Assembly: GCF_017875235.1 (NCBI RefSeq)
Contig: NZ_JAGGMI010000013.1
Span: 1-64,000, forward strand
DNA: 64,000 nucleotides
Direction: 5' to 3'
Origin: Asticcacaulis solisilvae
GTDB taxonomy: Bacteria > Pseudomonadota > Alphaproteobacteria > Caulobacterales > Caulobacteraceae
In this document: one piece after another, positions 28,950 through 50,607 of the stretch
Layout of the letters: each line of letters opens with the position of its first letter
Position numbering within the stretch: position 1 is the first letter of the stretch
Notes under the pieces: generated by a model
The model's input: the letters and a program-made list of their open reading frames with translations, nothing else
Database searches by the model: none
What the model was told of the DNA's origin: nothing
Position numbers and translations under genes: made by a program

Positions 28950-30551
28950 TTACGCCCGCTTGGACAGGGCGACGTAATTTTCTTTCGGCTTTTCGATGAA
29001 GCCGCTGGCATAGACCTGTTCGATGAGGGCGCGGTGGGTCGGCAGCTCCTGGGTCGCCTGTTCGCCGAAGCGGATGATGCGCGCAAAAGTGGCGTCGGCC
29101 GCCGCCTGACGCGGGGTGAAACCGCCGGCCTTGGCCGAAATATCCGTGCGGAAATTCATGCCGTACAGGATGTACTGGTAGTTGAAGTAGGCAAAGGTAT
29201 CGACGTCCTCCAGGAAGTCGAAGCGCGATGGCGGCCGGTACTTCCACATGGCCAGCAGTTCGTTCAGTTCGTCCGGAATGGTGCGGCTATCGGCATTGTC
29301 GCGCCAGAAGGGCTCATGCCGTTTGGTCACGCAGTAATGCAGTTTGAGGAAGTTGACGGTCTTCTCGTTGCGCAGCGTCATCAGTGTGTTGAAGCGCTTC
29401 GCCTGGGCATCAATCGGGCCGTCGTGCGGGAAGAACTCGGTCAGCATGCCGATGGCGACTTCGATCATCATGATGCCGGTCGCTTCCAGCGGTTCGAAGA
29501 AGCCGCCCGACAGACCGATAGCGACGCAGTTTTTGACCCACTGGGCTTCGCGATAGCCGGTATCGAACTTGATCACCCGCGTCGAATAGTCGGTGCCCTT
29601 GGGGCCTACGTAGCCGCGCAGGACCTCTTCGGCGCGGGCGTCGCTGGTATGGGCGGACGAATAGACATAGCCGACGCCGCGCCGGCTGTTGAGTCCAATA
29701 TCCCAGGTCCAGCCCGCCTCGTGGCCGGTGGAAACCGTATAACTTTCAATGGGGGCATCCGGTGCATCATAGGGCACCTGGCAGGCGATGGCGCTGTCGG
29801 TCAGCAACTGGTGCTTGACGGATTTATATGGCGACTTCAGCGCCTTGCCGATCAGTACCGCCGCGAAGCCGGTGCAGTCGATATAGAGGTCGGCGTCCAG
29901 CTCACCCTGGCTGTCGGTCATGAGCGAGGCAATGGCCCCGTCGTCGCCCAGCCTTACATCAGTGATCCGGCCCTGGAGGTGGGTAACCCCCAATGAGACG
30001 GCGTGCTTCGACAGGAGCCTGGCCAGCTTGGTGGCGTCGAAATGGTAGGCGTAGTTGAGCGGGCCGGCGTAGCCGCCCTGGTGCAGGCGCTTGGGGGCTT
30101 TCTGCGCCTCGGCAACGCGTTTCTGGAAGGTAACGGCCTGGGCGAACGGCACACGCGTCGCTTCGTCCTCAAGCAGCCAGTAGGGCAGGAGGCCGGCGCC
30201 GTCGACGAAGTAGGGCGGGTCGAACGGGTGGAAATAGTGGGCGTGCCGGCCGTTTTCCGGCGTGAGCTCCCAGTCGGCGAAGCGGATGCCTTGTTTGAAC
30301 GTCGCCGTCGCTTCGCGCAGGAAGGTCGCTTCGTCGATGCCGAGCGTCTGGAGCGTCGTGCGGATAGTGGCGAAACTGCCTTCGCCGACGCCGATAATGC
30401 CGATGTCCGGACTTTCGATCAGGGTGATGCGGGGGCAGGTCGCGGGGTTCTGGCCCAGGACCTTGGCCAGATAACAGGCTGTCAGCCAGCCGGCGGTGCC
30501 ACCGCCCGCGATCAGGACGCGGCGAGGCTGTAAAGAATGATGCTGTTCCAC
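28950..30551 (-). CDS. Flavin-dependent tryptophan-halogenase-like protein 1
   Basis: The 533-residue FAD-binding protein belongs to the tryptophan halogenase family. The N-terminal Rossmann motif is G-G-G-T-A-G-W, then G-V-G-E-G-S-F; F-K-Q-G-I-R-F holds the lysine region expected for halogenation. The halogenase WxWxIP motif is changed to W-T-W-D-I-G (residues near 270). I start it at GTG 30551, because no ATG precedes the nucleotide-binding motif. It is last in the run symporter, GH16, halogenase 2, halogenase 1, and is closely related to halogenase 2 (30624-32201). Real substrate is unknown; relatives are frequent in TonB-receptor sugar loci. Confidence 0.85.
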   Translation of the reverse strand: MEQHHSLQPRRVLIAGGGTAGWLTACYLAKVLGQNPATCPRITLIESPDIGIIGVGEGSFATIRTTLQTLGIDEATFLREATATFKQGIRFADWELTPENGRHAHYFHPFDPPYFVDGAGLLPYWLLEDEATRVPFAQAVTFQKRVAEAQKAPKRLHQGGYAGPLNYAYHFDATKLARLLSKHAVSLGVTHLQGRITDVRLGDDGAIASLMTDSQGELDADLYIDCTGFAAVLIGKALKSPYKSVKHQLLTDSAIACQVPYDAPDAPIESYTVSTGHEAGWTWDIGLNSRRGVGYVYSSAHTSDARAEEVLRGYVGPKGTDYSTRVIKFDTGYREAQWVKNCVAIGLSGGFFEPLEATGIMMIEVAIGMLTEFFPHDGPIDAQAKRFNTLMTLRNEKTVNFLKLHYCVTKRHEPFWRDNADSRTIPDELNELLAMWKYRPPSRFDFLEDVDTFAYFNYQYILYGMNFRTDISAKAGGFTPRQAAADATFARIIRFGEQATQELPTHRALIEQVYASGFIEKPKENYVALSKRA

Positions 30552-30597
30552 GGATTCCCGGCCGCATTGGAGTACAATTCCAGCCAGGTTAGCATGG

Positions 30598-30623
30598 ATT
30601 GGTATTATATCAATAGTACCAAT
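30598..30623 (-). promoter_or_regulatory. Inverted repeat with promoter-like element between halogenases 2 and 1
   Basis: ATTGGTA and TACCAAT are exact reverse complements separated by 12 bases. On the minus strand the spacer contains TTGATATAAT, a good sigma-70-like -10 hexamer (TATAAT). It sits right after the stop of halogenase 2 and 47 bases before halogenase 1, so halogenase 1 may have its own regulated promoter. Confidence 0.5.
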
Positions 30624-32201
30624 TTAAGCTTTCTTGCTACCGATCTTGTCCTTCTGGCGGTCGATAAAGCCGTTGCGATAGACCTGTTCGATCAGTTCAC
30701 GGTGGGTGGGCAGGTCCTTGACGGCGTGCTCGCCAAAGGTGCGGACCTTGTCGAAAATGCGCTGCGCGGCCTCGAGATTGGGATAGGAGCCGCGCGCCGC
30801 CGTCAGGTCGGTATCGAAGTCCATGCCGTAAAGGATATACTGATAGCTGAAATAGGGGAAGGTCTCGACATCGGTGAGGAAGTCGAAGCGCGACGGCGGG
30901 CGATGCTTCCACATCTCGAGCATCTGGCGCAACTCGGAGGGAATGGTCTCGTCCGCCGTGTTGTCGCGCCAGAACGGTTCGTCGCGCCGCGTCAGGCAGT
31001 AGTGCAGTTTCAGGAAGTTGACGATCTTCTCGCAGCGCTGGCGCATCAGCCGGTTGAACAGGTCGGCCGGGGCGTCGACGCGTCCCGCATGCGGGAAGAA
31101 TTCCGCGATCATGCCGGCGGCGACTTCGATCATGATGATGCCGGTGGCCTCGAGCGGTTCGAAGAAGCCCGCCGACAGGCCGACGGCGACGCAGTTCTTT
31201 ACCCACTGGGTTTCGCGATAGCCGGGATCGAACCTGATGATGCGCGTGGCGACGTCCTTCGCCATCGGGCCGGCATAGGCGCGGACGACCTCTTCGGCGC
31301 GCGTGTCGCTGGTATGATCGGAACTGTAGACATAGCCGACGCCGCGCCGTTCGCTCAGGCCGATGTCCCAGGTCCAGCCGGCCTCATGGGCGGTTGCGAC
31401 GGTATAGGAATGGATCGGGCTTTGCGGCGCTTCGTAAGGCACCTGGCAGGTGATGGCGCGGTCGGTGAACAGGTACTTGCGCACCGAGGTCTGGGCGACG
31501 CCCATAGCCTTGCCGATCAGAAGCGCAGAAAAACCGGTGCAGTCGATATAGAGGTCGGCCTCGAGCGCCCCGTGTTCGGGCGAGGTCACCTGGGCGATTG
31601 CGCCATCGTCGTCGAGTGTCACATCGCCGATCGTGCCGCGCAGGTGACGCACGCCGAGCGTAACGCCGCGCTGCTCCAGCAGCCGGGCGAACTTCACTGC
31701 ATCGAAGTGATAGGCGAAATTCAGAGGGCCCGAGAAGTTGCCCTCATAGGGACGCTTTGGCGCCTTGTCGGCATCCGCGACCCTGGGCTGAAAGGTGACG
31801 GCCTCGGCGAACGGCGCGCGGGCGGCCTTGTCCTGCAGCAGCCAGTAGGGCAGGAGGCCGGCGCCTTCGACCCAGTAGGGCGCGTCGAAAGGGTGCAGAT
31901 AGTGCGAATGCCCGCCGTCCTTGGGCGTGCGCAGCCAGTCGACGAACTTGATGCCCTGTTTGTAGGTCGCCGTCGTCTCGCGCAGGAAGGTCGCTTCGTC
32001 GATGCCGAGCGTCTGAAGCGTCGTGCGGATGGTCGGGAAGGTGCCCTCGCCGACGCCGATGACGCCGATCTCCGGACTTTCGATCAGGGTGATGGCGGGC
32101 GTGCGGCCAGGATCATTGCCCAGGACCTTTGCCAGGTAGCACGCCGTCAGCCAGCCCGCCGTTCCGCCACCGGCGATCAGGATGCTGCGTGGCGATGTCA
32201 T
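30624..32201 (-). CDS. Flavin-dependent tryptophan-halogenase-like protein 2
   Basis: 525 residues with G-G-G-T-A-G-W-L-T-A at the N terminus, G-V-G-E-G-T-F-P-T-I-R-T, and T-Y-K-Q-G-I-K-F. Like protein 1 it has W-T-W-D-I-G in place of WxWxIP. The C-terminal half shares W-V-K-N-C-V-A-V-G-L-S-A-G-F-F-E-P-L-E-A-T with protein 1, pointing to recent duplication. The start is 98 bases after the GH16 stop, in the same direction. Whether it halogenates anything is uncertain; both copies keep the FAD-binding parts intact. Confidence 0.87.
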   Translation of the reverse strand: MTSPRSILIAGGGTAGWLTACYLAKVLGNDPGRTPAITLIESPEIGVIGVGEGTFPTIRTTLQTLGIDEATFLRETTATYKQGIKFVDWLRTPKDGGHSHYLHPFDAPYWVEGAGLLPYWLLQDKAARAPFAEAVTFQPRVADADKAPKRPYEGNFSGPLNFAYHFDAVKFARLLEQRGVTLGVRHLRGTIGDVTLDDDGAIAQVTSPEHGALEADLYIDCTGFSALLIGKAMGVAQTSVRKYLFTDRAITCQVPYEAPQSPIHSYTVATAHEAGWTWDIGLSERRGVGYVYSSDHTSDTRAEEVVRAYAGPMAKDVATRIIRFDPGYRETQWVKNCVAVGLSAGFFEPLEATGIIMIEVAAGMIAEFFPHAGRVDAPADLFNRLMRQRCEKIVNFLKLHYCLTRRDEPFWRDNTADETIPSELRQMLEMWKHRPPSRFDFLTDVETFPYFSYQYILYGMDFDTDLTAARGSYPNLEAAQRIFDKVRTFGEHAVKDLPTHRELIEQVYRNGFIDRQKDKIGSKKA

Positions 32202-32299: not shown

Positions 32300-33217
32300 T
32301 CAGGGCTTGGTGTAGACCCGGACGTAGTCGACCTTGAACTGCCAGGGCAGGGATGCGTCGTCAACGCCGTTGACCCCGCCGAAATCGCCGCCGACCGCCA
32401 GGTTGAGGATCAGGAACTGCGGGTGGGTGAAGGGCCACTTGGTGTAATCGCCCGAGCCGTCATTGCGGAAACTGAAATAGTTACGGCCGTCGATACCCAT
32501 GGTGATGCGGTCGGCGGTCCAGGTCATTTCATAGACGTGCCAGGTATTGCAGACATTGGGTACGTCAGTCAGTACGTTCTTTTGCGTATTGATCGAATGG
32601 TAATAGGCCTTGGTATGGACGCTCTGATAGATCTTGTCGACGTTCCAGCCGACATATTCCATGATGTCAATCTCACCGTCGTCCGGCCATGAATTATAAG
32701 GCGCCGACGGCAACTGCCAGATGGCCGGCCATGAGCCTTTCGGGCAGGTGACAAGTGCGCGGCTTTCGACGTGTCCGTACTGATAGCTCATCTTCGACAG
32801 CAGACGCGCGGAAGTATAGGTCTGTCCGCCCCAATCGGCATTGCCGCTCAAGGATTCCTTACGCGCTTCTATGATCAGGTTGCCGCCTTCGACGCGGGCG
32901 TTCTCCGGGCGGTTGGCCGAATAGTATTGCTTTTCGTTGTTGTACCAACCGTCCTTGTTGCGGACAGTGTCATAGCTCCACTTGGCGGGATCGGGCAGGC
33001 CGTCGATATTGAACTCGTCCGACCAGTGCAGCGAATAGCCGGCGGGTACGCCGCCCGGTTCGTTGATCTGGGTCGGGCCAGGGCCCGTGGCGGAAGAGGA
33101 ACTGCTGCTGGCTGTTCCGCCGCCGGAGGTCTGGGCCGAGCCTCCGCCGCAGGCCGCAAGGGCGGCGAAGCTGAAAACGATGGCGATGGTGGTGCGCAGG
33201 GAATCGGCGGATGTCAT
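32300..33217 (-). CDS. Secreted GH16 beta-glucanase lipoprotein
   Basis: The 305-residue endo-glucanase (laminarinase/lichenase type) cuts beta-1,3 or mixed beta-glucans. A lipobox (L-A-A-C-G-G-G) and a Ser/Gly linker tether it. The GH16 core has W-S-D-E-F-N and the catalytic E-I-D-I-M-E near residue 180, where the extra Met marks the beta-bulge type common to 1,3-glucanases. Also visible are W-P-A-I-W-Q-L-P and H-V-Y-E-M-T-W-T. I chose the ATG at 33217, preceded by GAGG. An operator-like motif lies 21-38 bases upstream. It sits between the symporter gene and the halogenase genes. Confidence 0.93.
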   Translation of the reverse strand: MTSADSLRTTIAIVFSFAALAACGGGSAQTSGGGTASSSSSSATGPGPTQINEPGGVPAGYSLHWSDEFNIDGLPDPAKWSYDTVRNKDGWYNNEKQYYSANRPENARVEGGNLIIEARKESLSGNADWGGQTYTSARLLSKMSYQYGHVESRALVTCPKGSWPAIWQLPSAPYNSWPDDGEIDIMEYVGWNVDKIYQSVHTKAYYHSINTQKNVLTDVPNVCNTWHVYEMTWTADRITMGIDGRNYFSFRNDGSGDYTKWPFTHPQFLILNLAVGGDFGGVNGVDDASLPWQFKVDYVRVYTKP

Positions 33218-33238: not shown

Positions 33239-33256
33239 TAATGACATCGATGACAT
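33239..33256. promoter_or_regulatory. Shared operator-like motif, GH16 copy
   Basis: AATGACATCGATGACATT. On the other strand it reads AATGTCATCGATGTCATT, of which 17 bases recur exactly upstream of the TonB receptor gene (49250-49266). A CG-centred near-palindrome like this is typical of LacI-family operators. It lies between the symporter stop and the GH16 start. Confidence 0.75.
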
Positions 33257-33291: not shown

Positions 33292-34881
33292 CTAGAAGAA
33301 GGCGATGACGACGGCGCCCGTGACGATCAGCAGGCCTATCGAGAGGACGCGGTAGTTCTGATACCATTTTACCGTCTTCAGGTGGGCCGTTTCGGCGTCC
33401 CATACATCTTTCGAGAACATCAGAGGCATGATGCGGTCGGGATCGGGCGCCGGGCCGTAGCGGTTGCCGACGAACAGCGCGGCAAGGCTGACGGCGAAGA
33501 TGACGATCGCCGCCAGCAGGAAGTGCAGGTTGATGATCTTGAATGCGATGTCATCGGCGAAAAGGATGACGCTGGCGGCGGTGCCGAAGGCCAGGGCCGC
33601 GGCAGCCCCGGTGGAATTGGCGCGCTTCAGGAACAGCCCGCAGATAAAGACCGCGGCGATCGGCGGCACGAAATAACACAGTATGGCCTGCAGGTACTGC
33701 CACAACGTGTCCTTGAAATGGATGATCTGCGGCGCCCACAGGATCGAAAAGGCCATGACCGCCACCGTCGTCACCTGGCCAGTCCGCACCAGGCCGATCT
33801 CGCTCATGTCAGGTTTCAGCCGGCGGATGAAGTCCATGGTCACCAGCGTCGACGTCGCATTGTAGATGCCCGACAGCCCCGACAGGACCGACACCAGGCA
33901 GGCGGCGACGATCAGTCCGATCAGTCCGTGCGGCAAAATATCGAAGACGATGTGCGAGAAGACCTGGTCCGGCTTGTCGAGGTTGGGGAAGAGGGCAATG
34001 GTCGCCGCACCGGGCAGGACGACGAGGAACAGGGTGGTCAGTTTCAGCGCGCCGCCCATCAGGCTGCCCCACCGGCCGTCGTCGAGCGTACGGGCGGCGA
34101 GCACGCGCTGGACCATGGTCTGGTTGGTGCACCAGAAGTAGAAGCCGATCAGGGGCACGCCGGTCAAAAGCCCTGTCCACGGCATGGACGGATCGTCGGC
34201 CGGCTTGATCAGCTTCAGATTCTCAGGCGCGACATTGCTGAGCGCCGTCTGCCACCCGCCGGCGGCATTGAAGGTGAACCACGCGATCGCCGCGCAGGTC
34301 ATGACGAGGACAAGCCCCTGCACCGACTCGACCATCAGGACTGCGCGCAGGCCTCCCGCGACGAGAAAGCCGCCGGCCAGCAGGGCCAGAAGTACGCACA
34401 CCTGCCATAGCGCCCAGCCGGGAAACAGGAGCTGAAACAGGACGGCGCCGGCGAACAGGCCGCCGGCGGCATCGAGGAAGATGCCGAGCACGATCGATAA
34501 CGCCGACACGTAGGTGCGGACGAAACGGCCGTAGCGCAGTTCCAGGAACTCCGGCACGGTGAAGACCTGGCTGCGGATATAGGTCGGCAGGACGAAGGCG
34601 CAGAAGACGGTCAGGACAACGGCCGCGCTCCATTCGTAGTTGAAGACGGAGATGCCGTGGGCATAAGCGCTGCCGGTCAGCCCGACCAGCGAGGTTACCG
34701 ATATGGTCGAGGCATAAAGCGAGAAGCCGATCTTGGGCCAGGTCGCCGAATTGCCGCCCAGGAAGTGGTCGCGCGCCTTCAGCGTCCGGCGCTTGTCGAA
34801 CCAGCCATAGGCGAGCAGCCCGGCAAAATAGGTGAGTATGATCCCGATATCGAGCAGGCTTAAGGCGGATGCCTGAAACAT
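33292..34881 (-). CDS. Sodium/sugar symporter (SSS family)
   Basis: The 529-residue transporter has about 14 membrane helices and brings glucose or a related sugar across the inner membrane with sodium. Family signatures include G-G-N-S-A-T-W-P-K-I-G-F-S-L-Y-A-S, then G-G-L-R-A-V-L-M-V-E-S-V-Q-G, and G-L-S-G-I-Y-N-A-T-S-T-L-V-T-M-D with the sodium-site Ser/Thr residues. I start it at M-F-Q-A-S-A; the longer frame has no ribosome site. It heads the GH16/halogenase arm. The sodium/glucose SglT group is the nearest fit; specificity is inferred. Confidence 0.9.
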   Translation of the reverse strand: MFQASALSLLDIGIILTYFAGLLAYGWFDKRRTLKARDHFLGGNSATWPKIGFSLYASTISVTSLVGLTGSAYAHGISVFNYEWSAAVVLTVFCAFVLPTYIRSQVFTVPEFLELRYGRFVRTYVSALSIVLGIFLDAAGGLFAGAVLFQLLFPGWALWQVCVLLALLAGGFLVAGGLRAVLMVESVQGLVLVMTCAAIAWFTFNAAGGWQTALSNVAPENLKLIKPADDPSMPWTGLLTGVPLIGFYFWCTNQTMVQRVLAARTLDDGRWGSLMGGALKLTTLFLVVLPGAATIALFPNLDKPDQVFSHIVFDILPHGLIGLIVAACLVSVLSGLSGIYNATSTLVTMDFIRRLKPDMSEIGLVRTGQVTTVAVMAFSILWAPQIIHFKDTLWQYLQAILCYFVPPIAAVFICGLFLKRANSTGAAAALAFGTAASVILFADDIAFKIINLHFLLAAIVIFAVSLAALFVGNRYGPAPDPDRIMPLMFSKDVWDAETAHLKTVKWYQNYRVLSIGLLIVTGAVVIAFF

Positions 34882-34950
34882 GAGGCGGGACCCTGTGACT
34901 TTGTTATGATTCTTTACCCCTTTTGCTGGGGCATTTGCGGGCTGAGTACA

Positions 34951-34963
34951 CCACATAATGTGG
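34951..34963. promoter_or_regulatory. CCACAT-A-ATGTGG palindrome between symporter and Nudix genes
   Basis: Six-base arms around one base lie in the 182-base divergent promoter region, 70 bases before the symporter start and 101 before the Nudix start. A candidate operator for either gene. No further copy was seen. Confidence 0.45.
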
Positions 34964-40168: not shown

Positions 40169-42487
40169 TTACTGGCCGCGAACGTTGAGCGTCTGCTGCG
40201 AAAGCGTGACGGTCGCTGTCTGGGTCAGGTCGGTGGCCGAATTGCCGGTCAGGACCTTGTACTCGCCGGCCTTGACCGTCCAGGTTTTGGAAGCCGAGTC
40301 ATAGGTTGCCAGCAGGCGCGGATCGACGTCGAGCGACAGGTCCTTCGACTCGCCGGGCTTCAGGTCGACCTTGGCAAACGCCCCGAGGCGTTTGGGCGCT
40401 TCCCAGCCCGCATCCGCCGAAGGCGAGACATAGACCTGGACAGCGTCCTTGCCGACGACCTTGCCGGTATTGGTGATGCGCACCGACACCTTCACACCCT
40501 TGCCCGACGGCTGCGCCGACAGGTTGGAGGTGGCGAAGGTCGTGTAGCTGAGGCCGTGGCCGAAGGCGAAGAGGGGCTTCAGACCCTTCTTGTCGAACCA
40601 CTTATAGCCGATGGCCGCGCCTTCGATATTGTAGTCGCTCATCGGGTGAGAGTCGTGGTCGAGCTTCGGATCGCCTTCCAGGACCGGACGTGGTGTCTGG
40701 GCCAGCGAGGCCGGGAAGGTCGCCGGCAGGTGGCCCGACGGATTGACTTCACCGGTCAGGACACGGGCTATGGCTTCGCCGCCGGCCGTGCCGGGATACC
40801 AGGCTTCGAGCACGGCACCGACCTTCGACAGCCACGGCATAACGACCGGGCCGCCGGTTTGCAGAACGACGACGGTCTTCTTGTTGGCGCGGGCGACCGT
40901 GTCGATCAGCTTGTCCTGGTTGTCCGGCAGGTTCAGGTCCGGCGCATCGATCGACTCGCCCGTCCACTGCTCGGCGAAAACCAGCACGACATCGGCCTTC
41001 TTGGCGGCAGCGGCAGCCGCCTTCAGGTCCTTGCCGTCGAGATAGGTGACGGTGGCCTGCGTGCGGGCCTGAATGCCCTTCATCGGCGAAGACGGATACC
41101 AGGTCTTCGGACCAGGGAAGCCTTTGCCGAATTCGTCGGCGACGGGCGAGCCGCCGACCGGATAGACCTGGCTGGAGCCGCCGCCGGACAGGACGCCGAC
41201 ATCGGCGTGGGCGCCGACGATCAGGATCGACTTGGCGGTCTTCGACAGCGGCAGCAGGCCCGGCGTATTCTTCAGCAGGACGATGGCTTCTTCGGCATCG
41301 GCTTGCGTGATCGCGGCGTGCGCCTTGAAGTCGATGGTCGCCGACTGGTCGCCCTTGACCGGATTGTCGAACAGGCCGGTGTCGAACATGGCCCACAGGA
41401 TGCGGCGCGCCATGTCGGTGGCGCGCTCTTGCGAAACATAGCCGTTGTTGACGGCTTCGCGCAAAGGTCCTTCGAAATAGTTCGAGCGGTCAAATGCCCA
41501 GCCCGACTGCTGGTCCAGGCCCTGGTTGGCGGCCGGGATGGTCGAGTGGACGGCGCCCCAGTCGGACAGAACATAGCCCTTGTAGCCCCAGTCGGTCTTC
41601 AGGACTTCGTTGAGCAGCCAGTTGTTTTCGCAGGCATAGAAGCCGTTGACGCGGTTATAGGCGCACATGATCGAGGCCGGCTTGCCGATCTCGTTGGCGA
41701 TCTGGAAGGCCAGCAGATCGGATTCGCGCGCAGCCTTGTCCGAAATCTGGTGGTCGATGTTGAAGCGGTTGGTTTCCTGGCCGTTGAAGGCGAAGTGCTT
41801 CATGGTCGAGATGACATTGTTCGACTGGATGCCGGCGATTTCCTTGCCGGTGATGACGCCGGCTAACAGGGGGTCTTCGCCGCCATATTCGAAGTTGCGG
41901 CCGTTACGCGCGTCGCGCATCAGGTTCATGCCGCCGGCTAGCTGGACATTGAAACCGGAAAGGAAGGCTTCGCGGCCGATCATGGCGCCGCCGGCGTAGG
42001 CGAGGTCCGGGTTCCAGGTCGCGGCCGTGGCGATGCCCGACGGCAGGGCGGTGCGTCCACGCGGCAGGTCGGCGGCCTTGTCGGCGGCCGGAACCGTCTG
42101 GGTGGCGACGCCGACGCCGGCATCGGTCTGCCACTGGTTCGGGATGCCCAGGCGCGGGATGCCCGGGACGAAACCGGCCGAGAAGGGCAGGCCTTCTTCA
42201 GGCACGGCGAAATTCTTGATCTTGTTGACCTGCCACGGCGCCTTGGTCGAGAAGTAGCCAAAGGTCAGCTGCAGCTTTTCCGCCAGGGTCATTTCCTTGA
42301 GGAGGAGGTCGACGCGCTGGTCGGCGCTGAGGCTCTTGTTCATCCAGGGACGTTCGGCCGGGCCATCGGTCGGCGCGGCCGCGGCCTTGGGGGCATTGTT
42401 CGTCGTATTGGTCTGCGCCACAGCGGCCATAGGGCCGAAGGCGATCAGGGCCGAGGCACTCAAAAGGGCGAGTTTGTTCAGGGTCAT
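40169..42487 (-). CDS. GH3 beta-glucosidase, secreted
   Basis: The 772-residue enzyme has a Sec signal (L-L-S-A-S-A-L-I-A-F-G-P-M-A-A-V-A-Q) and removes glucose from beta-linked oligosaccharides, probably in the periplasm. The GH3 nucleophile Asp is in Y-V-L-S-D-W-G-A-V-H. The N-terminal barrel has K-H-F-A-F-N-G-Q-E and the second domain has G-G-G-S-S-Q-V. A fibronectin-III-like C-terminal domain ends the protein (V-Q-V-Y-V-S-P). It follows halogenase 3 by 28 bases in the same direction, so it is the third gene of that operon. Confidence 0.94.
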   Translation of the reverse strand: MTLNKLALLSASALIAFGPMAAVAQTNTTNNAPKAAAAPTDGPAERPWMNKSLSADQRVDLLLKEMTLAEKLQLTFGYFSTKAPWQVNKIKNFAVPEEGLPFSAGFVPGIPRLGIPNQWQTDAGVGVATQTVPAADKAADLPRGRTALPSGIATAATWNPDLAYAGGAMIGREAFLSGFNVQLAGGMNLMRDARNGRNFEYGGEDPLLAGVITGKEIAGIQSNNVISTMKHFAFNGQETNRFNIDHQISDKAARESDLLAFQIANEIGKPASIMCAYNRVNGFYACENNWLLNEVLKTDWGYKGYVLSDWGAVHSTIPAANQGLDQQSGWAFDRSNYFEGPLREAVNNGYVSQERATDMARRILWAMFDTGLFDNPVKGDQSATIDFKAHAAITQADAEEAIVLLKNTPGLLPLSKTAKSILIVGAHADVGVLSGGGSSQVYPVGGSPVADEFGKGFPGPKTWYPSSPMKGIQARTQATVTYLDGKDLKAAAAAAKKADVVLVFAEQWTGESIDAPDLNLPDNQDKLIDTVARANKKTVVVLQTGGPVVMPWLSKVGAVLEAWYPGTAGGEAIARVLTGEVNPSGHLPATFPASLAQTPRPVLEGDPKLDHDSHPMSDYNIEGAAIGYKWFDKKGLKPLFAFGHGLSYTTFATSNLSAQPSGKGVKVSVRITNTGKVVGKDAVQVYVSPSADAGWEAPKRLGAFAKVDLKPGESKDLSLDVDPRLLATYDSASKTWTVKAGEYKVLTGNSATDLTQTATVTLSQQTLNVRGQ

Positions 42488-42515: not shown

Positions 42516-44093
42516 CTATTCGGCGGCGAAATGGGCTGTTGACGATGTCATGGGATCGGCTGGACAATAGGTTCTAAGGAAGTCTGACAGCGCTGGCAAG
42601 GTTTGCACAAAACTCTGCAGTTGCGGCTTCACTTCGTTCAGCAAATGATGCAACTGGGCACTATCCAGCCGGTCGGTGAGGAAGTTGTAGCGATAGGGTC
42701 TGACCCCCATGCCTTCCAGCACCGAATACCACGACGGCTGGCGGAACAGCTCTTCCGGACCGGTTTCGCGCAAGGCGCCGGACGCACGGAAGACATCGAG
42801 CTTGGCCCGCAAGCTATCGGGGATCGGGTCCGACTTGACGCGCCGCCAGAACTCCGTGTCGTCGCGCTGCGTCACGCAATAGTGCAGGATGATGAAGTCC
42901 TTGATCTCGTCGTAGTCATTATAGATACGGCGGTTGAAATCGGCCTGCAGGGCCGGATTGAACGACTTGTCCGGGAAGTAGCGGAAGAAGAAGTCGAGCG
43001 TGCGGTAGACGAGGTGAATGGCCGTCGATTCCAGCGGCTCGATAAAGCCTGAGGCCAGGCCCAGCGACAGAACGTTCTTCGACCAGACCTGCTTGCGGAT
43101 GCCGGTTGTGAACGGCACGATCATCGGACCGGCCACGACCTTACCCTCGACCTGGCTGAGAAGGGTCGCGGTCGCTTCGTCATCGGAGATATAGTCCTTG
43201 CAGAAGACGTAGCCGTTGCCCGAGCGGTGCTGGAGCGGGATGCGCCAGCGCCAGCCATAGTCCTGCGCTTGCGCAAGCGTATAGGGGGCGGGCTCACCTA
43301 CGTTCTCGGTCTGGCAGACGACGGCGCGGTTGCACAGAAGCTGGTCGGCCCAGCTTTCGTATTCGACGCCCAGGGTCTTGCCAATCAGAAGCGCGCGGAA
43401 GCCGGTGCAGTCGACGAACAGGTCGCCGCTGATCTCCTCGCCGGACTTGAGCACCAGCGAGCGGACATTGCCGTTGGGCGCCTGGTTGACGGTTTCGATC
43501 AACCCCTCGGTGCGGATGGCGCCGAACTTTTCGGCGTGGCTTCGGAGATATTGCGCCACCAGCTTGGCGTCGACGTGCAAGGCGTAGTTGGCGGAGGCGA
43601 TCGGCGTGCGCGGCGCCTTCTGCGGCAGCATGAACCGGCCCTCAGCCGCCATGACCGAGGCGGGGGCGAAGTCCTGGAGCGCACTGTCATGGCCTTCGAG
43701 CCTGGCCTTCAGCCAGCAGTGGTAGAAGTCGTTGCCCTCTATGGCCGCGCCGATCTGGCCGAACGGGTGGAAGTAGCTGTGGCGCCTGGTCAGCCAGTTC
43801 TCGAAGCGGATGCCGAGCTTGAAGCTGGCTTGCGTCTTCTGGATGAAGTCCTGTTCGTTGATGCCGAGATTGGCAATCAGGCCCAGGAAGGGCGGGATGG
43901 TCGATTCGCCGACGCCGATCGTGCCGATCTCTTCCGATTCGATCAGCCGGACGCGGGCGCCAGGCATGTGCACGGCGAACAGGGCGGCCGCCATCCAGCC
44001 GGCCGTGCCGCCGCCGCAGATGACGACGTCGCGGATCTCGTTCGGATCTTTCATCAGGCTCTCTGGCATTTGCGGTTCTTTATGCGGAGACAC
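42516..44093 (-). CDS. Flavin-dependent tryptophan-halogenase-like protein 3
   Basis: 525 residues when started at GTG 44093, which has a strong AGGAGG five bases upstream and overlaps the halogenase 4 end by 14 bases; the ATGs at 44069 and 44054 have weaker sites. FAD motif G-G-G-T-A-G-W-M-A-A-A, G-V-G-E-S-T-I-P-P-F, F-K-L-G-I-R-F-E-N-W with the conserved lysine, and a canonical W-R-W-R-I-P (WxWxIP). By motif it is closer to protein 4 than to 1 and 2. It sits between protein 4 and the GH3 gene in one operon. Confidence 0.88.
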   Translation of the reverse strand: MSPHKEPQMPESLMKDPNEIRDVVICGGGTAGWMAAALFAVHMPGARVRLIESEEIGTIGVGESTIPPFLGLIANLGINEQDFIQKTQASFKLGIRFENWLTRRHSYFHPFGQIGAAIEGNDFYHCWLKARLEGHDSALQDFAPASVMAAEGRFMLPQKAPRTPIASANYALHVDAKLVAQYLRSHAEKFGAIRTEGLIETVNQAPNGNVRSLVLKSGEEISGDLFVDCTGFRALLIGKTLGVEYESWADQLLCNRAVVCQTENVGEPAPYTLAQAQDYGWRWRIPLQHRSGNGYVFCKDYISDDEATATLLSQVEGKVVAGPMIVPFTTGIRKQVWSKNVLSLGLASGFIEPLESTAIHLVYRTLDFFFRYFPDKSFNPALQADFNRRIYNDYDEIKDFIILHYCVTQRDDTEFWRRVKSDPIPDSLRAKLDVFRASGALRETGPEELFRQPSWYSVLEGMGVRPYRYNFLTDRLDSAQLHHLLNEVKPQLQSFVQTLPALSDFLRTYCPADPMTSSTAHFAAE

Positions 44094-45615
44094 GGTGTCC
44101 TCCTGAAAGGCGATTGCAATGGTCAAGGAAGGCACGGTGCGGAGGCGCGGCCTTTACCGTCGCGTCAATTTCCTGGCGGATATGCAGCAGGCGCGAACGC
44201 ACCTCGGCTGGCGTCAGTTGCCCGACCGCGGGATCGATGCTGTCGGGCCAGACATCGAAGCCGGCATAGATGGCCAGCCAGGACGCCGGGTGGAACATCT
44301 CCCAGCGGTAGCGGACAAAGTGGCCGCGGCGCTGATAGAGGTCGATCTTGCGCTGGAGCGTATCGGGCAGGTCCATGGCGGCGGCCTCTTTCCAGAAGTC
44401 GCTGTCGCCGCGCTGATTGAGCTTGTAGTGCAGGATGATGAAGTCGCGGGTCCGTTCCATCTCGCGCTTCGCCATGTCGTTATGCTCGTCGACCAGCATC
44501 TCGTCGAAGCCATCAACGGGCAGCAGCATCTGGAGACGTTCGATGCCGGTCTGGATGAGGGCGATCGAGGTCGACTCCAACGGTTCCAGAAAACCGGAAC
44601 TCAATCCGACGGCGATGCAGTTCTTCTCCCAGGCCTTGGCGCGCCGGCCTGGACGGAAGCGAATCACGCGCGGCTCGGTGATAGGCTTGCCGGGCAGGCT
44701 GTCGGCCAGAACGCCGATGGCTTCGTCGTCCGACATGTGGGCCGATGCATAGACGTGGCCGTTGCCGGAGCGGTGCTGCAACGGGATATGCCATTGCCAG
44801 CCCGCAGGGCGCGCCGTGACGTCGGTATAGACATTGGGAACGCTGACGCGCTCGCTCTGCTGGGCAACGGCGCTGTCGCAGAACAGCCATTGGCCGTAAT
44901 CCTCGTAGCCGACGCCCAACGCCTTCCCGATGAGCAAGGCCTGGAAGCCCGAGCAGTCGATGAACAGATCCCCCTCGATTGATTGGCCATTGTCGAGGTT
45001 AAGCGACGTGATGTGGCCGTTTTCAGGGTCGAGCGTGACGTCCTTCAGCACCGCATCGATATGTCGGACGCCGCGCGCTTTCGCGAAATCGCGCATATGG
45101 TTGGCGAACAGGCTGGCGTCGAAATGCAGCGCCCAGTCGAACTGGGTATAGGAATCTATGGTCGGCGAGGGCAGGGCGAATTTGCCGGCCTTGGCCAACG
45201 CCGCGCCCATGGCGAAGTCGTCGAGGTCCTTCAGGCCGAAGGCGTCGCGGTACTGGTTCCAAAAGTGATGGAAGCCAACGCCGCCGAAGTCGTGGCCGAA
45301 GGCGCCGAAGGGATGGATGAAGCTTTCGCCTTCGCGCTTCCAGCCGTTGAAGCGGATGCCGAGCTTGCACGAGGCCTGCGTGGCGGCGATGACGTCGTAA
45401 TCGGTCATGCCCAGAGCCGCATAGAAACGGCGCAATGTTGGAATGGTGGCTTCGCCGACGCCGATCGTGCCGATGGCCAGCGATTCGACCAGAGTAATCG
45501 CGATCGGTGTATTGCGGTAATGGTTAACCAGAGACGCGGCGGTCATCCAGCCGGCGGTTCCCCCGCCCAGAATGACGATACGAGACAGGCGCCTGTCGCC
45601 CCCGATGCTTGCCAT
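44080..45615 (-). CDS. Flavin-dependent tryptophan-halogenase-like protein 4
   Basis: 511 residues, started at M-A-S-I-G-G-D with GGGGAG in front; the 83 in-frame codons upstream have no such site. It has G-G-G-T-A-G-W-M-T-A-A-S, G-V-G-E-A-T-I-P-T-L, C-K-L-G-I-R-F-N-G-W with the conserved lysine, and canonical W-Q-W-H-I-P. The halogenase motifs are therefore complete here, unlike proteins 1 and 2. It is first in the operon with protein 3 and GH3 and lies downstream of the TonB receptor gene. Confidence 0.88.
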   Translation of the reverse strand: MASIGGDRRLSRIVILGGGTAGWMTAASLVNHYRNTPIAITLVESLAIGTIGVGEATIPTLRRFYAALGMTDYDVIAATQASCKLGIRFNGWKREGESFIHPFGAFGHDFGGVGFHHFWNQYRDAFGLKDLDDFAMGAALAKAGKFALPSPTIDSYTQFDWALHFDASLFANHMRDFAKARGVRHIDAVLKDVTLDPENGHITSLNLDNGQSIEGDLFIDCSGFQALLIGKALGVGYEDYGQWLFCDSAVAQQSERVSVPNVYTDVTARPAGWQWHIPLQHRSGNGHVYASAHMSDDEAIGVLADSLPGKPITEPRVIRFRPGRRAKAWEKNCIAVGLSSGFLEPLESTSIALIQTGIERLQMLLPVDGFDEMLVDEHNDMAKREMERTRDFIILHYKLNQRGDSDFWKEAAAMDLPDTLQRKIDLYQRRGHFVRYRWEMFHPASWLAIYAGFDVWPDSIDPAVGQLTPAEVRSRLLHIRQEIDATVKAAPPHRAFLDHCNRLSGGHRVSA

Positions 45616-45749: not shown

Positions 45750-45946
45750 GGAAATCACGTCCCCGGCAAGGGGCCCGAGACCTGTCAGTTGGGGAAGACA
45801 GAAACCAATGGGGCGGAAGAACCACGCCCAACATGTTCCTGGACCGCATATCCGGTACGTCCACACCCAGGGAGCAATGTTCGCAGGCGGATATGGGACT
45901 TCTGTGCGCGCCGGTCCCCGCCGGCTTCGCAATCTCTTAGGTGACA

Positions 45947-45983: not shown

Positions 45984-48900
45984 TTACCACTTGGCGCGGA
46001 CGCCCAGGGTGTAGCGCGGTTCGAACTGGTTCTGGAACGCGTACTGCTTCGAGTCGCCGAAGTGATAGTTATACGTTTCCGTTTCGCCCGTGACGTTCGA
46101 GCCGTTGAAGTACAGCGACACGCGGTCGGTGACATCGTAGGTGGCGTTGACGTCGATGAAGTTGGTGGCTTCGGCGAAGATCGGAATCTTCGAGTTGTCC
46201 ACCAGGCTGGCGATGTTCTGCAGGCGCTCGCTGCGGTAGTTGTAGGCGACGCGGATCTGCAGCTTGTCGTCCTGATACCAGCCGATCAGGTTGAACTGAT
46301 CGCGCGAGTTATTGAAGAAGGGCAGTTTTTCGCCATCGAGGCCGACATCGCCGGATTCGGACGGCGAATAGGTGTAGTTGGTGTCGACGCCCAGGTTGGA
46401 CAGGAAGCCGCCGTCGACAAAGTCGGCAAGGGCGATCTTGGCGCCGAGTTCGAGGCCCTGGACCTTGCCGCTGTCGCCCTGGATGGGCAGGAAGATCGGC
46501 ACGGCGCCGGCGGGCGAACCGTCGGAGTTGACGAACTGGCCCGGTGCCGACAGGATTTGGCCGCCGACGACGAAGCTCTTGATCTGCATGTCGAAGATGG
46601 CGGCGCTGAGGACCGAGCCGCGGCCGAGGTAGTATTCCGCCGACAGGTTGGTGTTGGTCGAGCGCCACGGATCGAGGTACGGGTTGCCGTTCGAGTTGGC
46701 CGAGGTGACCACGCGGCGCGGCGGGACGTGACCCGGATCGTCATTGGTGTTGATCTTGATCGAGCCGCCGTAGTTGCCCAGGTCCAGCGGCTGCATGGTC
46801 TTGGCATAGCCGAAGCGCACCTTGAACTGGTCGGTGACATCGGCATTGATGTTCAGCGACGGCAGGACGTCGGTGTATTTGCGGTTGGTGACCGTGTCGC
46901 CGGTATCGGCATTGGTGTCGCCATAGGCCAGGGTGTCGCCAGTCACGTTCTGCTTGACGTTCAGTTCGGTCTGGATGACACGGACGCCGACATTACCCGA
47001 GAAGATGCCGACTTCGAATTCGCCCGAAGCGTAGACATTGTTCTCGTACATGTTGACTTCGTAGGTTTGGCCCGGAACCGTGATCGGAACCGCGCCGCCG
47101 AAGACCTTCTCGTGGAACGAGCGGACATCGTCGAAGTCCTTGGGATCGACGGCCCAGAAGCCCGGAATGCCGGAGGCGGTGTCGCCGCCCAGGCCTTCGA
47201 CGAAGACGACATTGTTGAATTCGTCAATGCGCGTCGGCTTGTTGACCGTATAGCCCTGGAAGACCATGACGGCCGGGTTGGTGGCCGACGGCACCATTTC
47301 GCCGGCGGAGCACTGGCCCTGATCCATCACGACGTCGATGGCCTTCCACTGGGCAAGGCAGCCCGTGGCCGGAACCGGCTGGCCGTTGGCCTGGACGCCC
47401 TTGCCGGCATAGAAGTTCGAGAACAGGTGGAACTGTTCGATGTCGGTCGTACGCTGGCTGACGCGGACACCGGCATCGAGTTTGGTGAAGATACCCAGCG
47501 CCTTTTCGTCGAAGCGGTAATGGCCGTCTGCACGGGCCACGTTGAGCGTCGACGACGCATCGTTATTGCCTTCCGACGAGAAGGCGCCGACGCGGTAGGA
47601 GTTCAGGTTGGCCATGTAGTCGGCGGTCGTCTTGCCGGCGCCCAGGCCGCCTGCGCGGGCCATGACGTCGCCAAAGCCGTCGAACACCGCATTGCCGCCT
47701 GCGAAGTCGACGTGCAGGAGCGGGTTGGAGTTATAGCCTTCCGGGTTCGGGTTGAGGTAGCAGCCGCCGGCCGAACCGGTGATGGCGTTCGAGCGCTGAG
47801 AGGCCGGGAATTTCGAACAGATGTCTGCCGGATAGAAGGTGCCGCGCGAGCGGTCATCCGGATTGCGGAACAGAGTGAATTCACCCGGGGCCGCCGCATC
47901 ATACTGCCAGTTCGACAGGTCGCCCTGGACCTGGCCGTTCATGCTGAGGCGGCTGGCGCGGGCGCTGATGAAGCGGGTTTCGGCAGTGAACTTGCCGCCG
48001 TTGTCGTACTTCAGCTCGAGGTTATAGTTGGTCGATTCCGAATTGTTGGTCCGGTTGACGGTGAACGAATTCAGCCACTGGGCGTTGATGTCGTAAGACG
48101 ACACGTTCCACCACGGCGTGCCGTTCGAATCATCCAGGCCGGTATCGGTGTGCTCATCGGGCGTCAGCCAGGTCGCGAACGCGCCGCCGTCCCAGCGGTT
48201 GGAGATGTTCAGGCCCATGGCGCGATTGTGTTCTTCGAGCTTGGCGTAGAACACGTCGCCGGTCAGGGTCCAGCCGTCGTCCAGTTTAGCCTGGAACGAC
48301 AGGTTGGCGCCGGTGCGCTTGCGCTGGATCGAGCGGTTGTAGACTTCGAAGCCGTGCGGCGCGATGAAGTTCTGCGGCTGGCCCGCGCCCCAGTCGTTCT
48401 GCGAGAAGACGCCGCCGCCGGAACCGGAGTAGTTGTTGCCGTTGGTCGTGTCGCCGATGGCGACGCTGGCCAGGATGCCGATACGGTCATTGCGCCATGA
48501 GGCGAGCCCGTTGACCATATAGTCGTTTTCTTTGGTGTAGTCGCCGCGCGAGGCTTCGGCCGCGCCCGTCAGGCTGAGGCCCTTCGGCATCTGGAACGGG
48601 CGGCGGGTCTGCAGGTCGATCGTGCCCGAAATGCCGGCCAGCGGCGTGCGCGGGTCGACCGACTTATAGACGACGACGCCGCTCATCAGCTGGGACGGCA
48701 CGTCGAGGAAGTTGGCCTGGGCCTGGCCGATATTGCCGGCTGACAGGTACTGTTCCCCGTTCATCAGGGTGTAGGTCTGGCCCAGACCGCGGATCTGGAC
48801 GCTGGCGCCTTCACCGGCTTCACGGATGATCTGGATGCCGGGCACGCGCTGCAGCGAGTCGGCGATGGTGGTGTCCGGCAGCTTGCCGATGTCTTCGGCC

Positions 48901-49130
48901 GAGATGCCGTCGACCTGGGCGATCGCCCGCTTCTTGATGTCGACCGCGCGCAACTGCGAGCCGCGCACGCCCTTGACGATGACAACCTGGTCTTCCACGG
49001 GCTCCGCGGCGGGCGCCGCCGTGTCCTGGGCGATCGCGCCCGAAGACAGCGCGAGCATGGAAACGCCCGAGCAGAGCAGCGTGCTGAACGCCAGCTTCAA
49101 CGCCTTCTTACCATTAAGGTGTGATGACAT
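45984..49130 (-). CDS. TonB-dependent receptor, carbohydrate type
   Basis: The 1048-residue outer-membrane receptor imports a ligand, here most likely a beta-glucan oligosaccharide. A Sec signal (to about A-I-A-Q) precedes a TonB-box-like D-Q-V-V-I-V-K-G. The plug has L-P-D-T-T-I-A-D-S-L-Q-R-V-P-G-I-Q-I and R-G-L-G-Q-T-Y-T-L-M-N-G. The barrel ends with the aromatic Y-T-L-G-V-R-A-K-W. The plug and barrel motifs are those of the caulobacterial/xanthomonad sugar receptors that have LacI and tryptophan halogenase genes as neighbours. No FecR/sigma pair is present. An operator motif lies about 120 bases upstream. Confidence 0.93.
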   Translation of the reverse strand: MSSHLNGKKALKLAFSTLLCSGVSMLALSSGAIAQDTAAPAAEPVEDQVVIVKGVRGSQLRAVDIKKRAIAQVDGISAEDIGKLPDTTIADSLQRVPGIQIIREAGEGASVQIRGLGQTYTLMNGEQYLSAGNIGQAQANFLDVPSQLMSGVVVYKSVDPRTPLAGISGTIDLQTRRPFQMPKGLSLTGAAEASRGDYTKENDYMVNGLASWRNDRIGILASVAIGDTTNGNNYSGSGGGVFSQNDWGAGQPQNFIAPHGFEVYNRSIQRKRTGANLSFQAKLDDGWTLTGDVFYAKLEEHNRAMGLNISNRWDGGAFATWLTPDEHTDTGLDDSNGTPWWNVSSYDINAQWLNSFTVNRTNNSESTNYNLELKYDNGGKFTAETRFISARASRLSMNGQVQGDLSNWQYDAAAPGEFTLFRNPDDRSRGTFYPADICSKFPASQRSNAITGSAGGCYLNPNPEGYNSNPLLHVDFAGGNAVFDGFGDVMARAGGLGAGKTTADYMANLNSYRVGAFSSEGNNDASSTLNVARADGHYRFDEKALGIFTKLDAGVRVSQRTTDIEQFHLFSNFYAGKGVQANGQPVPATGCLAQWKAIDVVMDQGQCSAGEMVPSATNPAVMVFQGYTVNKPTRIDEFNNVVFVEGLGGDTASGIPGFWAVDPKDFDDVRSFHEKVFGGAVPITVPGQTYEVNMYENNVYASGEFEVGIFSGNVGVRVIQTELNVKQNVTGDTLAYGDTNADTGDTVTNRKYTDVLPSLNINADVTDQFKVRFGYAKTMQPLDLGNYGGSIKINTNDDPGHVPPRRVVTSANSNGNPYLDPWRSTNTNLSAEYYLGRGSVLSAAIFDMQIKSFVVGGQILSAPGQFVNSDGSPAGAVPIFLPIQGDSGKVQGLELGAKIALADFVDGGFLSNLGVDTNYTYSPSESGDVGLDGEKLPFFNNSRDQFNLIGWYQDDKLQIRVAYNYRSERLQNIASLVDNSKIPIFAEATNFIDVNATYDVTDRVSLYFNGSNVTGETETYNYHFGDSKQYAFQNQFEPRYTLGVRAKW

Positions 49131-49249
49131 GTGTGATCCGTCCCTAATCCTTGTCCGAGTTATTGCTTATGAGTCACCGTTCTTTGCCGGTGTGTACGCC
49201 TACTGATATCCCGGTTCCGCCTGTCGGATTGTCTTTCCGGACATATGGC

Positions 49250-49266
49250 ATGTCATCGATGTCATT
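49250..49266. promoter_or_regulatory. Shared operator-like motif, TonB receptor copy
   Basis: ATGTCATCGATGTCATT, identical over 17 bases to the opposite strand of the motif before the GH16 gene. The right half overlaps a further inverted repeat reaching 49277. It lies 120-136 bases upstream of the receptor start codon. Confidence 0.75.
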
Positions 49267-49394
49267 TATAATGACATTGATAAACATATGATATTATGAA
49301 CATACCCTGCTATTTTTGCTGTTATGCTCGGTAAAATCGACAAAACCGGCATTGGCACACTTGGCGAATGGACAAAAAGATGTCAAGCATTTTG

Positions 49395-49414
49395 TCCATC
49401 GATGTCATTTGTAG
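49395..49414. promoter_or_regulatory. Shared operator-like motif, LacI-side copy
   Basis: TGTCCATCGATGTCATTTG. It shares ATCGATGTCATTT with the receptor copy but has one extra base in the left half. It is about 170 bases before the LacI start, so it may serve autoregulation or act as an auxiliary site for looping with the receptor copy about 145 bases away. Confidence 0.6.
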
Positions 49415-49584
49415 GCATGAAATGTTCAGCTTTGTCTGTCAGGATGTTGCAAGCTTGCATCACATGGGGTTGCGTCTATAAAATGCACGTTATGGTGGTC
49501 GACCAAAGGGGCCATTGGCATGTTAGCGCAACCACGTTATGAATTGGTCGGCCGTTCCGGCACCGGGAGTTATAAAGCTAAATT

Positions 49585-50607
49585 ATGTCGACCATCTATG
49601 ATGTGGCCGAACTGGCCGGGGTTTCGGCAAAGACGGTGTCGCGTGTCCTGAATGAGGACCGGGCCGTCAAGGACAATACGCGCGAACGCGTCCTCGAGGC
49701 CATGAGCAAGCTCGACTACCGGCCCAACACTCAGGCCCGGTCGTTGCGCCTGGGCAAGACCAAGACGTCCGTCGGCATGCTGCTCGAAGATCCGGCCAGC
49801 GGTTATCAGGGCCGTTTCCACCACGCCATGCTGATGGCCTCCATGGAAACCGGCAACTACGTCGCCATGGAACTGTTCGAACACGGCCAGCCGGACTATC
49901 TCGCCGATGTTGACCGCTTCATCACCGACGCCCAGATTCGCTCGATGGTTCTCTTGCCACCGCTGTGCGACTTCGGACCGCTGAAGGCGCTCCTGAAGAC
50001 GCGCAACATTCACTGTGTGCTGATCTCACCGACGACGCCCGACAGCCACTATCCTTCTGTCGCCATGGACGACCGCGTGGCTGCGCGCGATATCACGGAC
50101 TACCTGCTGTCGCTGGGGCACACGAAAATCGCTCATATCGCGGGGCATCCCGACCACGCCGCGGCCTTGTTGCGCCGGCAGGGATTCCACGAGGCTTTCG
50201 ACGCGTCGGGCCGCCCGCGGCCGCCAAAGGACTATTTCGCCGAAGGCCTGTTCACCTTCAAGACCGGCATTGCCGCGGCCGAAAAGCTGCTGAGCCTGCC
50301 GGAGCGCCCGACCGCCATCTTTGTCTCCAACGACGAGATGGCGGCGGCGGCCTGTTCGGTGGCGCACAGGATGGGGTTGCGTATTCCCGAAGACCTGTCC
50401 GTCGTCGGCTTCGACGACGCGCCGATTGCGTCGGCCATCTGGCCGGCCCTGACCACGGTTCGCCAGCCCTATCTCGACATGGCGCGTCGCACGTTGCAGA
50501 TCCTCAATGCGGCCGGCGACACGGTGCGGGCCTCCGATATCCAGCCGCGCCACATTATACCGCACGAACTGATCGCGCGGGAATCGACCGCGCCCCTCAA
50601 GGGCTGA
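49585..50607 (+). CDS. LacI-family transcriptional regulator
   Basis: The 340-residue repressor has the standard helix-turn-helix (I-Y-D-V-A-E-L-A-G-V-S-A-K-T-V-S-R-V-L-N) and hinge helix region (Y-R-P-N-T-Q-A-R-S-L-R). A periplasmic-binding-protein-like sensor follows (I-F-V-S-N-D-E-M-A-A-A and V-V-G-F-D-D-A-P-I-A). It is divergent from the TonB receptor gene and is the likely controller of the beta-glucan locus through the TGTCATCGATGTCATT motif; the effector would be a glucose or glucan-derived sugar. This assignment rests on gene position and motif sharing. Confidence 0.93.
   Translation: MSTIYDVAELAGVSAKTVSRVLNEDRAVKDNTRERVLEAMSKLDYRPNTQARSLRLGKTKTSVGMLLEDPASGYQGRFHHAMLMASMETGNYVAMELFEHGQPDYLADVDRFITDAQIRSMVLLPPLCDFGPLKALLKTRNIHCVLISPTTPDSHYPSVAMDDRVAARDITDYLLSLGHTKIAHIAGHPDHAAALLRRQGFHEAFDASGRPRPPKDYFAEGLFTFKTGIAAAEKLLSLPERPTAIFVSNDEMAAAACSVAHRMGLRIPEDLSVVGFDDAPIASAIWPALTTVRQPYLDMARRTLQILNAAGDTVRASDIQPRHIIPHELIARESTAPLKG

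Follow-up and report, generated by a model that had tools for sequence, protein, structure and literature searches.

Four halogenase-family flavoproteins in a probably LacI-controlled glucan-type locus of Asticcacaulis solisilvae and the conserved unit of TonB-dependent receptor and two halogenases

What use does a sugar-utilisation locus have for four proteins of the tryptophan-halogenase family? The question is raised by a 64,000-nt stretch of DNA from Asticcacaulis solisilvae (assembly GCF_017875235.1, contig NZ_JAGGMI010000013.1, positions 1 to 64,000; here called the window). An earlier note, made from the sequence alone, had described two pairs of halogenase-like genes in it, set among a glucanase, a symporter, a glucosidase and a TonB receptor. 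The genes are where they were said to be. Four members of PF04820, here A (28950..30551), B (30624..32201), H (42516..44093 is likely, in an open reading frame (ORF) that extends to 44135) and I (44080..45615 is preferred, the ORF opening at 45864), lie on the minus strand. A and B come after a protein of glycoside hydrolase family 16 (GH16; C) and a sodium:solute symporter (SSS; D), and I and H stand between a TonB-dependent receptor (J, 45984..49130, minus strand) and a GH3 glycosidase (G); all of these neighbours are matched by Pfam. We hold this anatomy of the locus to be practically certain. The halogenase family, the receptor family and the type of locus are already known. The element that seems new is the association of J, I and H, and the reading that we favour, at a probability of about 0.38, is that I and H modify a polypeptide, which may be the receptor in its precursor form, prior to export, or else a peptide that the receptor handles.

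The association is best seen in relatives. Among 249 genomes of the family, our own included, orthologs of J were found in 58, of H in 58 and of I in 57 (at E<=1e-200, E<=1e-160 and E<=1e-170, respectively), and the three sets of genomes coincide but for one member, G438, in which I has been lost and J and H are kept (L247). The spacing between J and I is 93-457 bp in 56 of the 57; in the other (G396) the two are on separate contigs, J being at a contig end. Because the gaps between the matches shrink to 93 bp, we judge that no conserved peptide gene is hidden between J and I. In about 10 kb around 20 of the 58 loci, chosen by hand, H is present in 20/20 and I in 19/20, a LacI gene like that of our locus (K) in 16/20 and a G-like GH3 gene in 11/20. 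Since the regulator and the glycosidase are less tightly linked, we take the unit to be the receptor plus the halogenase pair. SSS or major facilitator superfamily (MFS) transporters accompany the module in some loci, and in G393 a symporter of the D family follows H.

A scan of named genomes with I tells the same story, but the two sets overlap and are not additive. It gave 41 loci; all 36 that have an I ortholog (51-74%, the highest in a metagenome-assembled genome of Asticcacaulis) have an H ortholog behind it and a receptor upstream, often with LacI and GH3, and the remaining five have more distant halogenases only. Among the hosts are Asticcacaulis, Brevundimonas, Sphingomonas, Hephaestia, Niveispirillum, Azospirillum and, among Gammaproteobacteria, Seongchinamella and Paraglaciecola. 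By comparison of the sequences, J-I-H is a conserved unit inherited together, a receptor followed by two different halogenases dependent on flavin adenine dinucleotide (FAD). Relatives of A and B, taken at E<=1e-100 to B, were found in 53 genomes out of 299 in the order, our own included, and among 20 A/B-type loci fetched a receptor is found in 12 stretches and directly adjoins the halogenase in six. In a member of the same genus (G021) the arrangement SSS-GH16-halogenase-LacI repeats the cassette. In a separate case, the receptor and I of locus L191 are each split into two frames.

The membership of the four proteins in the family is clear. They match PF04820 at 428-569 bits (cut-off 21; A at 432.8), and the FAD motif GGGTAGW and the catalytic Lys and Glu are kept in all of them, which bears out the claim of complete FAD motifs. 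The catalytic Glu is the one that we take, after PrnA and RebH, to lie within EPLES/AT; both Glu are present in all four. The two pairs belong to different subfamilies (34-36% identical). A and B are tandem paralogues (68%), and H and I are 39% identical. WxWxIP is kept in H and I; A and B have WTWDIG instead, a form common to the PDB entries 2pyx, 9ltb and 9lu2, which are also the nearest to A (393, 397 and 376 bits). Sequence I scores 666 bits to the BrvH structure 6frl and 452 to the next entry, and is by its closest solved structure a BrvH-type enzyme. The nearest entries to H are Xcc4156 (6y1w, 427 bits), BrvH (421) and 9luq (411). The NCBIfam models for QhpG, GoxB and LodB reach 19-39 bits with the halogenases, against cut-offs of 240-400, no higher than the matches to other flavoproteins.

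Is a locus with four such genes exceptional? The earlier note made much of four copies in one sugar locus, but the rest of the genome does not support the view that halogenases in such a locus are special here. The 5.0-Mb genome holds 80 receptor barrels and 30 PF04820 genes, the latter grouped into 20 clusters; 26 of the 30 keep the FAD motif, Lys and Glu. Eighteen of the 20 clusters lie within 5.4 kb of a TonB receptor, a distance fixed after the distances had been inspected. Random placement of the clusters (on 22 of 34 contigs, 4.88 of 5.01 Mb) gave a mean of 4.0 and a maximum of 13, and never 18 in 20,000 trials. Counted by gene, 25 of the 30 are within that distance, the exceptions being A, B and three genes on another contig (C8). 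Between the distances of the halogenases and those of the receptors there is a weak correlation (Mantel r 0.20, p 0.043, n=18). PF04820 matches were found in 49 of 61 genomes (60 relatives and our own). Of 24 relatives of the same genus, 22 have from 9 to at least 23, the high counts being lower bounds (no more than about 22 candidates were scored in each genome), one (G011) has three and one (G017) none. It should be noted that G017, with 70 plug domains yet no PF04820 match, offers a natural control.

Several of the halogenase loci hold a degenerate copy. Seven PF04820 copies, four in our genome (L037, 8860-10374; L038, 8971-10629; L044, 10789-12363; L046, 8672-10144) and three in relatives (L104, 6422-7870; L109, 7560-9191; L110, 11396-12727), have no catalytic Lys, and each is beside an active copy. 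In the four of our own, Asp or Thr replaces the Glu; the three of the relatives lack Glu and the glycine motif also, and stand between active copies (in L110, as seen by eye). The glycine FAD motif is lost in six of the seven, the copy at C14:75970 of our genome keeping it (L038 reads GGGLAG); three of our own dead copies and that of L109 have GRDxxxW at the FAD site. The dead copy of L037 still has BrvH as its closest entry in the PDB (280 bits). Intact copies are nonetheless the rule: 112 of 117 PF04820 frames in the relatives' loci keep the FAD motif, Lys and Glu, and two of the other five are one broken gene, although these loci were selected from strong matches, which favours intact copies. 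Because dead copies adjoin active ones, and because I-H and A-B come as pairs, a two-subunit unit is suggested. I and H, and likewise A and B, are likely to work as a pair, which is probably a heteromer. A recurrent crystal dimer is described for halogenases of the family in the available part of one study (PMC7336383).

The two pairs at our locus appear to be tied to sugar uptake by an operator. The 16-mer WTGWCATCGATGWCAW occurs at exactly two sites in the whole 5,007,880-bp genome, and its reversed control pattern at none; a longer 18-mer, with <=3 mismatches, has two matches in the window against 0.02 expected. One LacI-type site (33241..33256) lies between the end of D (33292..34956, minus strand; PF00474, with TIGR00813 above its cut-off) and the preferred start of C (32300..33217, minus strand, the ORF opening at 33256; Pfam 66 bits), and so precedes GH16-B-A. 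The other (49250..49265) lies between J and the divergent LacI-family regulator K (49585..50607, plus strand; PF00356, PF13377), on the side of receptor-I-H-GH3. Because the operator is found only before these two operons, GH16-B-A and J-I-H-G probably form one regulon, and K would be the protein that binds the predicted operator. The same element stands between LacI and receptor in six other Asticcacaulis loci (L154, L156, L157, L159, L170 and L177); when <=3 mismatches are allowed, four weaker operator-like sites appear in other loci fetched from our genome (L033, L045, L059 and L078). The common operator of the earlier note is thereby upheld as sequence, with the correction that the genes form two operons rather than a single one, and a stretch of genes of six families separates them.

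With receptor, glycosidase, transporter and shared operator all present, the locus has the make-up of a LacI-controlled glucan-type locus. Beta-glucan may be the substrate because C has the catalytic motif EIDIME of GH16 beta-glucanases and G (40169..42487, minus strand) the SDW motif of GH3, and only because of these; no NCBIfam equivalog model was above its cut-off for either enzyme. By eye, G has a signal-peptide-like N-terminus, and C could be a lipoprotein, with a LAAC box. J is of the Xanthomonas-Caulobacter type (TIGR01782, 501.5 bits, cut-off 310). Pfam finds both its plug and its barrel, its predicted model has a mean predicted local distance difference test (pLDDT) score of 83.8, and a fold search of the PDB matches TonB receptors for siderophores, haem and others, giving no hint of the substrate. 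The likely starts of I (about 45615), H (about 44093) and C (about 33217) were chosen from the ribosome-binding site and homologue length; that of H gives a 14-nt overlap with the end of I. The stretch between the two operons holds NUDIX, LigB, YceI, DUF1993, OsmC and flavodoxin-like genes, plus small ORFs, and no operator site was found there. Of these, the OsmC and flavodoxin-like genes stand behind GH3 and might have supplied a flavin partner for the halogenases; they were set aside because inspection of the sequence by eye shows a hairpin followed by a T-run separating them from GH3. Elsewhere in the window, the proteins at 4419-7565 and 61728-63983 cluster only with each other (294 proteins compared).

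What, then, would the halogenases do? The earlier note expected a real job for them, and we hold one to be likely, because the operator is shared with the uptake system, the catalytic residues are kept and the genes are retained together. Halogenases of this family use FADH2 and O2. By eye, no signal peptide was seen in the four, so I and H (and A and B) would act in the cytosol as an FAD halogenase/oxygenase pair. The pair would use FADH2, O2 and a halide, preferably bromide as in BrvH, and what it modifies would be an electron-rich aromatic group specific to that receptor system. A polypeptide is a likelier target than the sugar, and it could be the receptor itself, because no partner other than the receptor polypeptide accompanies H in every case. 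The receptor is singled out as the sole constant partner because many receptors have their own halogenases, because H and I stay while glycosidase and regulator change, and because no peptide gene fits between J and I. The suggestion of the earlier note that an aromatic part of the substrate is modified is less favoured for related reasons: the halogenases are tied more tightly to the receptor than to the glycosidase, and most halogenase-linked receptors have a copy or copies of their own.

A number of observations weigh against a polypeptide target at the receptor. The nearest receptor is more than 13 kb away from A and B, and more than 42 kb away from the three C8 halogenases (L044, C8:137-142 kb; one is dead). 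At three loci of relatives (L112, L114 and L118) the receptor that goes with the halogenase is of another type, and in two of 20 relatives' loci (L110 and L122) no receptor is found within the stretch fetched. Four of the 58 H matches have one stop codon inside the matched span. Xcc4156 is perhaps monomeric in solution, according to the part of the report available (PMC7336383). Co-inheritance would fit a shared small-molecule pathway as well. Finally, no acceptor residue was found in the receptor. Halogenase-neighbour receptors show no enrichment of Trp (p 0.28), and G438, the genome that lost I, keeps every receptor Trp conserved in at least 52 of 56 sequences; of the aromatic and charged residues that hardly vary in the receptor, a single one differs there, by D662N, three residues from the invariant Trp659. 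One candidate, Tyr155 in the [YF]K motif of the J plug, the receptor residue that follows halogenases most closely, must also be given up: it cannot be the acceptor, because Phe takes its place in many receptors of the same module, those of Brevundimonas among them.

The Tyr155 position is informative in another way. The residue before the Lys at this aligned plug position (K156 in J) is aromatic in 33/33 halogenase-neighbour receptors as against 7/35 others, the column having been picked after a scan of all columns in our own receptors, so that over the full set the test is post hoc. Independent of that choice is the count of 15/15 in relatives against 1/7 in the halogenase-free G017, with shared ancestry remaining as a caveat. 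Receptors that lack K at the following position, or that show the classical plug pattern, were dropped before the count; five of these are halogenase neighbours: two of our own (C12:91986 and C19:18587), which share a halogenase with a K-type receptor, and L112, L114 and L118, which are true exceptions. One of our 80 receptors was not recovered as a gene, and for G017 the best 30 of 70 plugs were taken, of which 27 were aligned and 7 kept. A fit of correlated evolution gave a likelihood ratio (LR) of 26 (p 3e-5), with rates at their bounds and few independent changes. Because Tyr and Phe are interchangeable there, the position is a marker of the receptor class that takes halogenases, and not their substrate.

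The main competitor of a polypeptide target is a small aromatic molecule, such as a phenol or indole aglycone that arrives together with imported beta-glycosides or is released from them, that would be halogenated for detoxification or to make a signal or an inhibitor. GH3 and GH16 are under the operator that the halogenases share, SSS or MFS transporters go with the module in some loci, and BrvH does brominate free indole, but slowly (2.5 mU/mg; both from the part of PMC5945002 available). A G-like GH3 gene is found in only about half of the loci that always have H, as counted above, and 26 intact paralogues in one genome exceed what a common detoxification seems to need; we consider this explanation possible and on balance doubtful. 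Somewhat further down is chemistry of the FAD-hydroperoxide or hypohalous acid (HOX) type with no halogenation in vivo, the proteins acting as monooxygenases that hydroxylate or oxidise a protein or ligand; the earlier note had named a non-halogenating redox function as its second option. The loss of the P of WxWxIP in A and B is in keeping with it, as are the JmjC-type Cupin_8 and DUF6445 proteins that accompany other receptor loci, and halogenases of the FADH2 type are related in structure to protein-Trp monooxygenases, QhpG and GoxB being closest to the halogenase CmlS (available part of PMC7876137). Set against these are the Lys needed for halogenation, kept in all four proteins, the low scores of the QhpG, GoxB and LodB models, and the K83A change that abolishes BrvH activity in the portion of that study at hand (PMC5945002), which make a role of this kind rather unlikely. 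That the proteins serve as sensors or structural subunits, their catalytic residues being of little importance, is improbable: the persistence of the Lys-less copies beside active ones, most of them without the glycine motif too, speaks for it, and the full retention of motif, Lys and Glu in nearly all frames of the relatives speaks against it.

There remains a hidden natural-product pathway elsewhere in the genome. Relatives such as PrnA and RebH act in such pathways, and the earlier note had named a partner aromatic biosynthesis cluster as a finding that would count against a role in sugar use. The condensation domain of nonribosomal peptide synthetases (NRPS; PF00668) is absent from the genome, polyketide synthase (PKS) and other biosynthesis families not having been searched genome-wide, and aromatic biosynthesis families are missing from the 25 most frequent of 157 Pfam families in the halogenase neighbourhoods; one neighbour does match PhzC-PhzF by name. 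The 105 neighbour proteins belong most often to LacI (5), DUF6445 (4), GntR (4) and Cupin_8 (3), followed by GH43, GH3, GH2, aldose epimerase and ROK (2 each), a tally restricted to those 25 families and made with no control set of halogenase-free receptor loci. This company, and the strict linkage of H and I to the receptor, leave very little room for such a pathway.

A bolder form of the polypeptide reading may be put forward, though it too is on balance doubtful: a large class of "tryptophan halogenases" might be maturation enzymes of TonB receptors, made of two subunits of which one is sometimes dead, and modifying the receptor or its bound peptide before export. A glycan receptor would then work, or be recognised, only once modified, and Cupin_8/JmjC, DUF6445 and SapC proteins at other receptors would be parallel modifiers. 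Two recurrent arrangements deserve mention in their own right. DUF6445 (PF20043) recurs in receptor-halogenase loci of our genome (L037, 5829-6524 and 6607-7320; L038, 12072-12770; L042, 10838-11599; L046, 3144-3818) and in L119, L120 and L123. An HxD...H motif and an R are invariant in eight of its sequences and look like the site of a 2-oxoglutarate Fe(II) oxygenase. A receptor-SapC-Cupin_8-halogenase module is present in L041 (C1:551-558 kb) and in L108, and is kept across two families of the order.

In sum, the analysis names a likely working unit for halogenases of the BrvH and Xanthomonas type: a specific TonB receptor, a co-retained second halogenase and an operator linking them to a sugar regulon. 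This opens the native role of BrvH-type enzymes to testing, and the pair can be tested at once. A receptor target would mean that outer-membrane proteins undergo a modification of a new kind, one that extends across Caulobacteraceae, Sphingomonas and some Gammaproteobacteria. With a small molecule as the target, there would be a link between halogen chemistry and the uptake of sugar that the literature we found does not describe.

How does the locus compare with known systems? TonB carbohydrate utilisation (CUT) loci of Xanthomonas consist of a receptor, glycosidases, an inner-membrane transporter and a LacI-type regulator, and the proximity of halogenase genes to TonB receptors is not a new observation. 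The present locus shares receptor, glycosidase, transporter and LacI-type regulator with the CUT loci. The word halogenase is absent from the Xanthomonas paper (PMC1790865), whereas in the present locus it is the halogenases that show the tightest linkage within J-I-H. In our search of the literature, which left subscription papers and preprints mostly outside, no paper stated a receptor-halogenase-halogenase unit or explained the linkage of halogenases to receptors. Halogenase genes stand out in metagenome-assembled genomes of Caulobacterales, TonB not being mentioned in the text of that report (PMC10919026), and a table of genes that affect colony morphology in a freshwater Sphingomonas includes one "Tryptophan halogenase" gene, hit by a single transposon insertion (PMC11340318).

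Among the enzymes, the free-Trp halogenases PrnA, RebH and PyrH have the same fold family and the same catalytic Lys and Glu, but are far from I (243, 240 and 288 bits, against 666 for BrvH). The putative tryptophan halogenases 2pyx, 9ltb and 9lu2 have the motif WxWDI(G/A)L in common with A. QhpG, a peptidyl-Trp dihydroxylase, provides a precedent for a polypeptide target, since it is a flavoprotein that oxidises, in the cytoplasm, Trp of a co-encoded exported protein (available part of PMC7876137); its similarity to the halogenases of the locus is at the level of the superfamily only, far under the family cut-off. In Xcc4156, which is close to H, the active site is open; the enzyme accepts indole but not free Trp (available part of PMC7336383). 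The same holds for BrvH, and peptides have been proposed as substrates of both enzymes (PMC5945002 and PMC7336383, as far as available). BrvH, from Brevundimonas BAL3, has the FAD, Lys and WxWxIP motifs as in I; it prefers bromide and accepts indole, its native substrate being given as not known (available part of PMC5945002). A second halogenase gene, 42.7% identical, adjoins brvH, just as H, 39% identical, adjoins I. BrvH was assayed on indole, with neither a joint assay of the two halogenases nor a receptor or regulator context given in the accessible part of the same paper, whereas I and H are seen here in the context of their receptor and of a LacI regulator.

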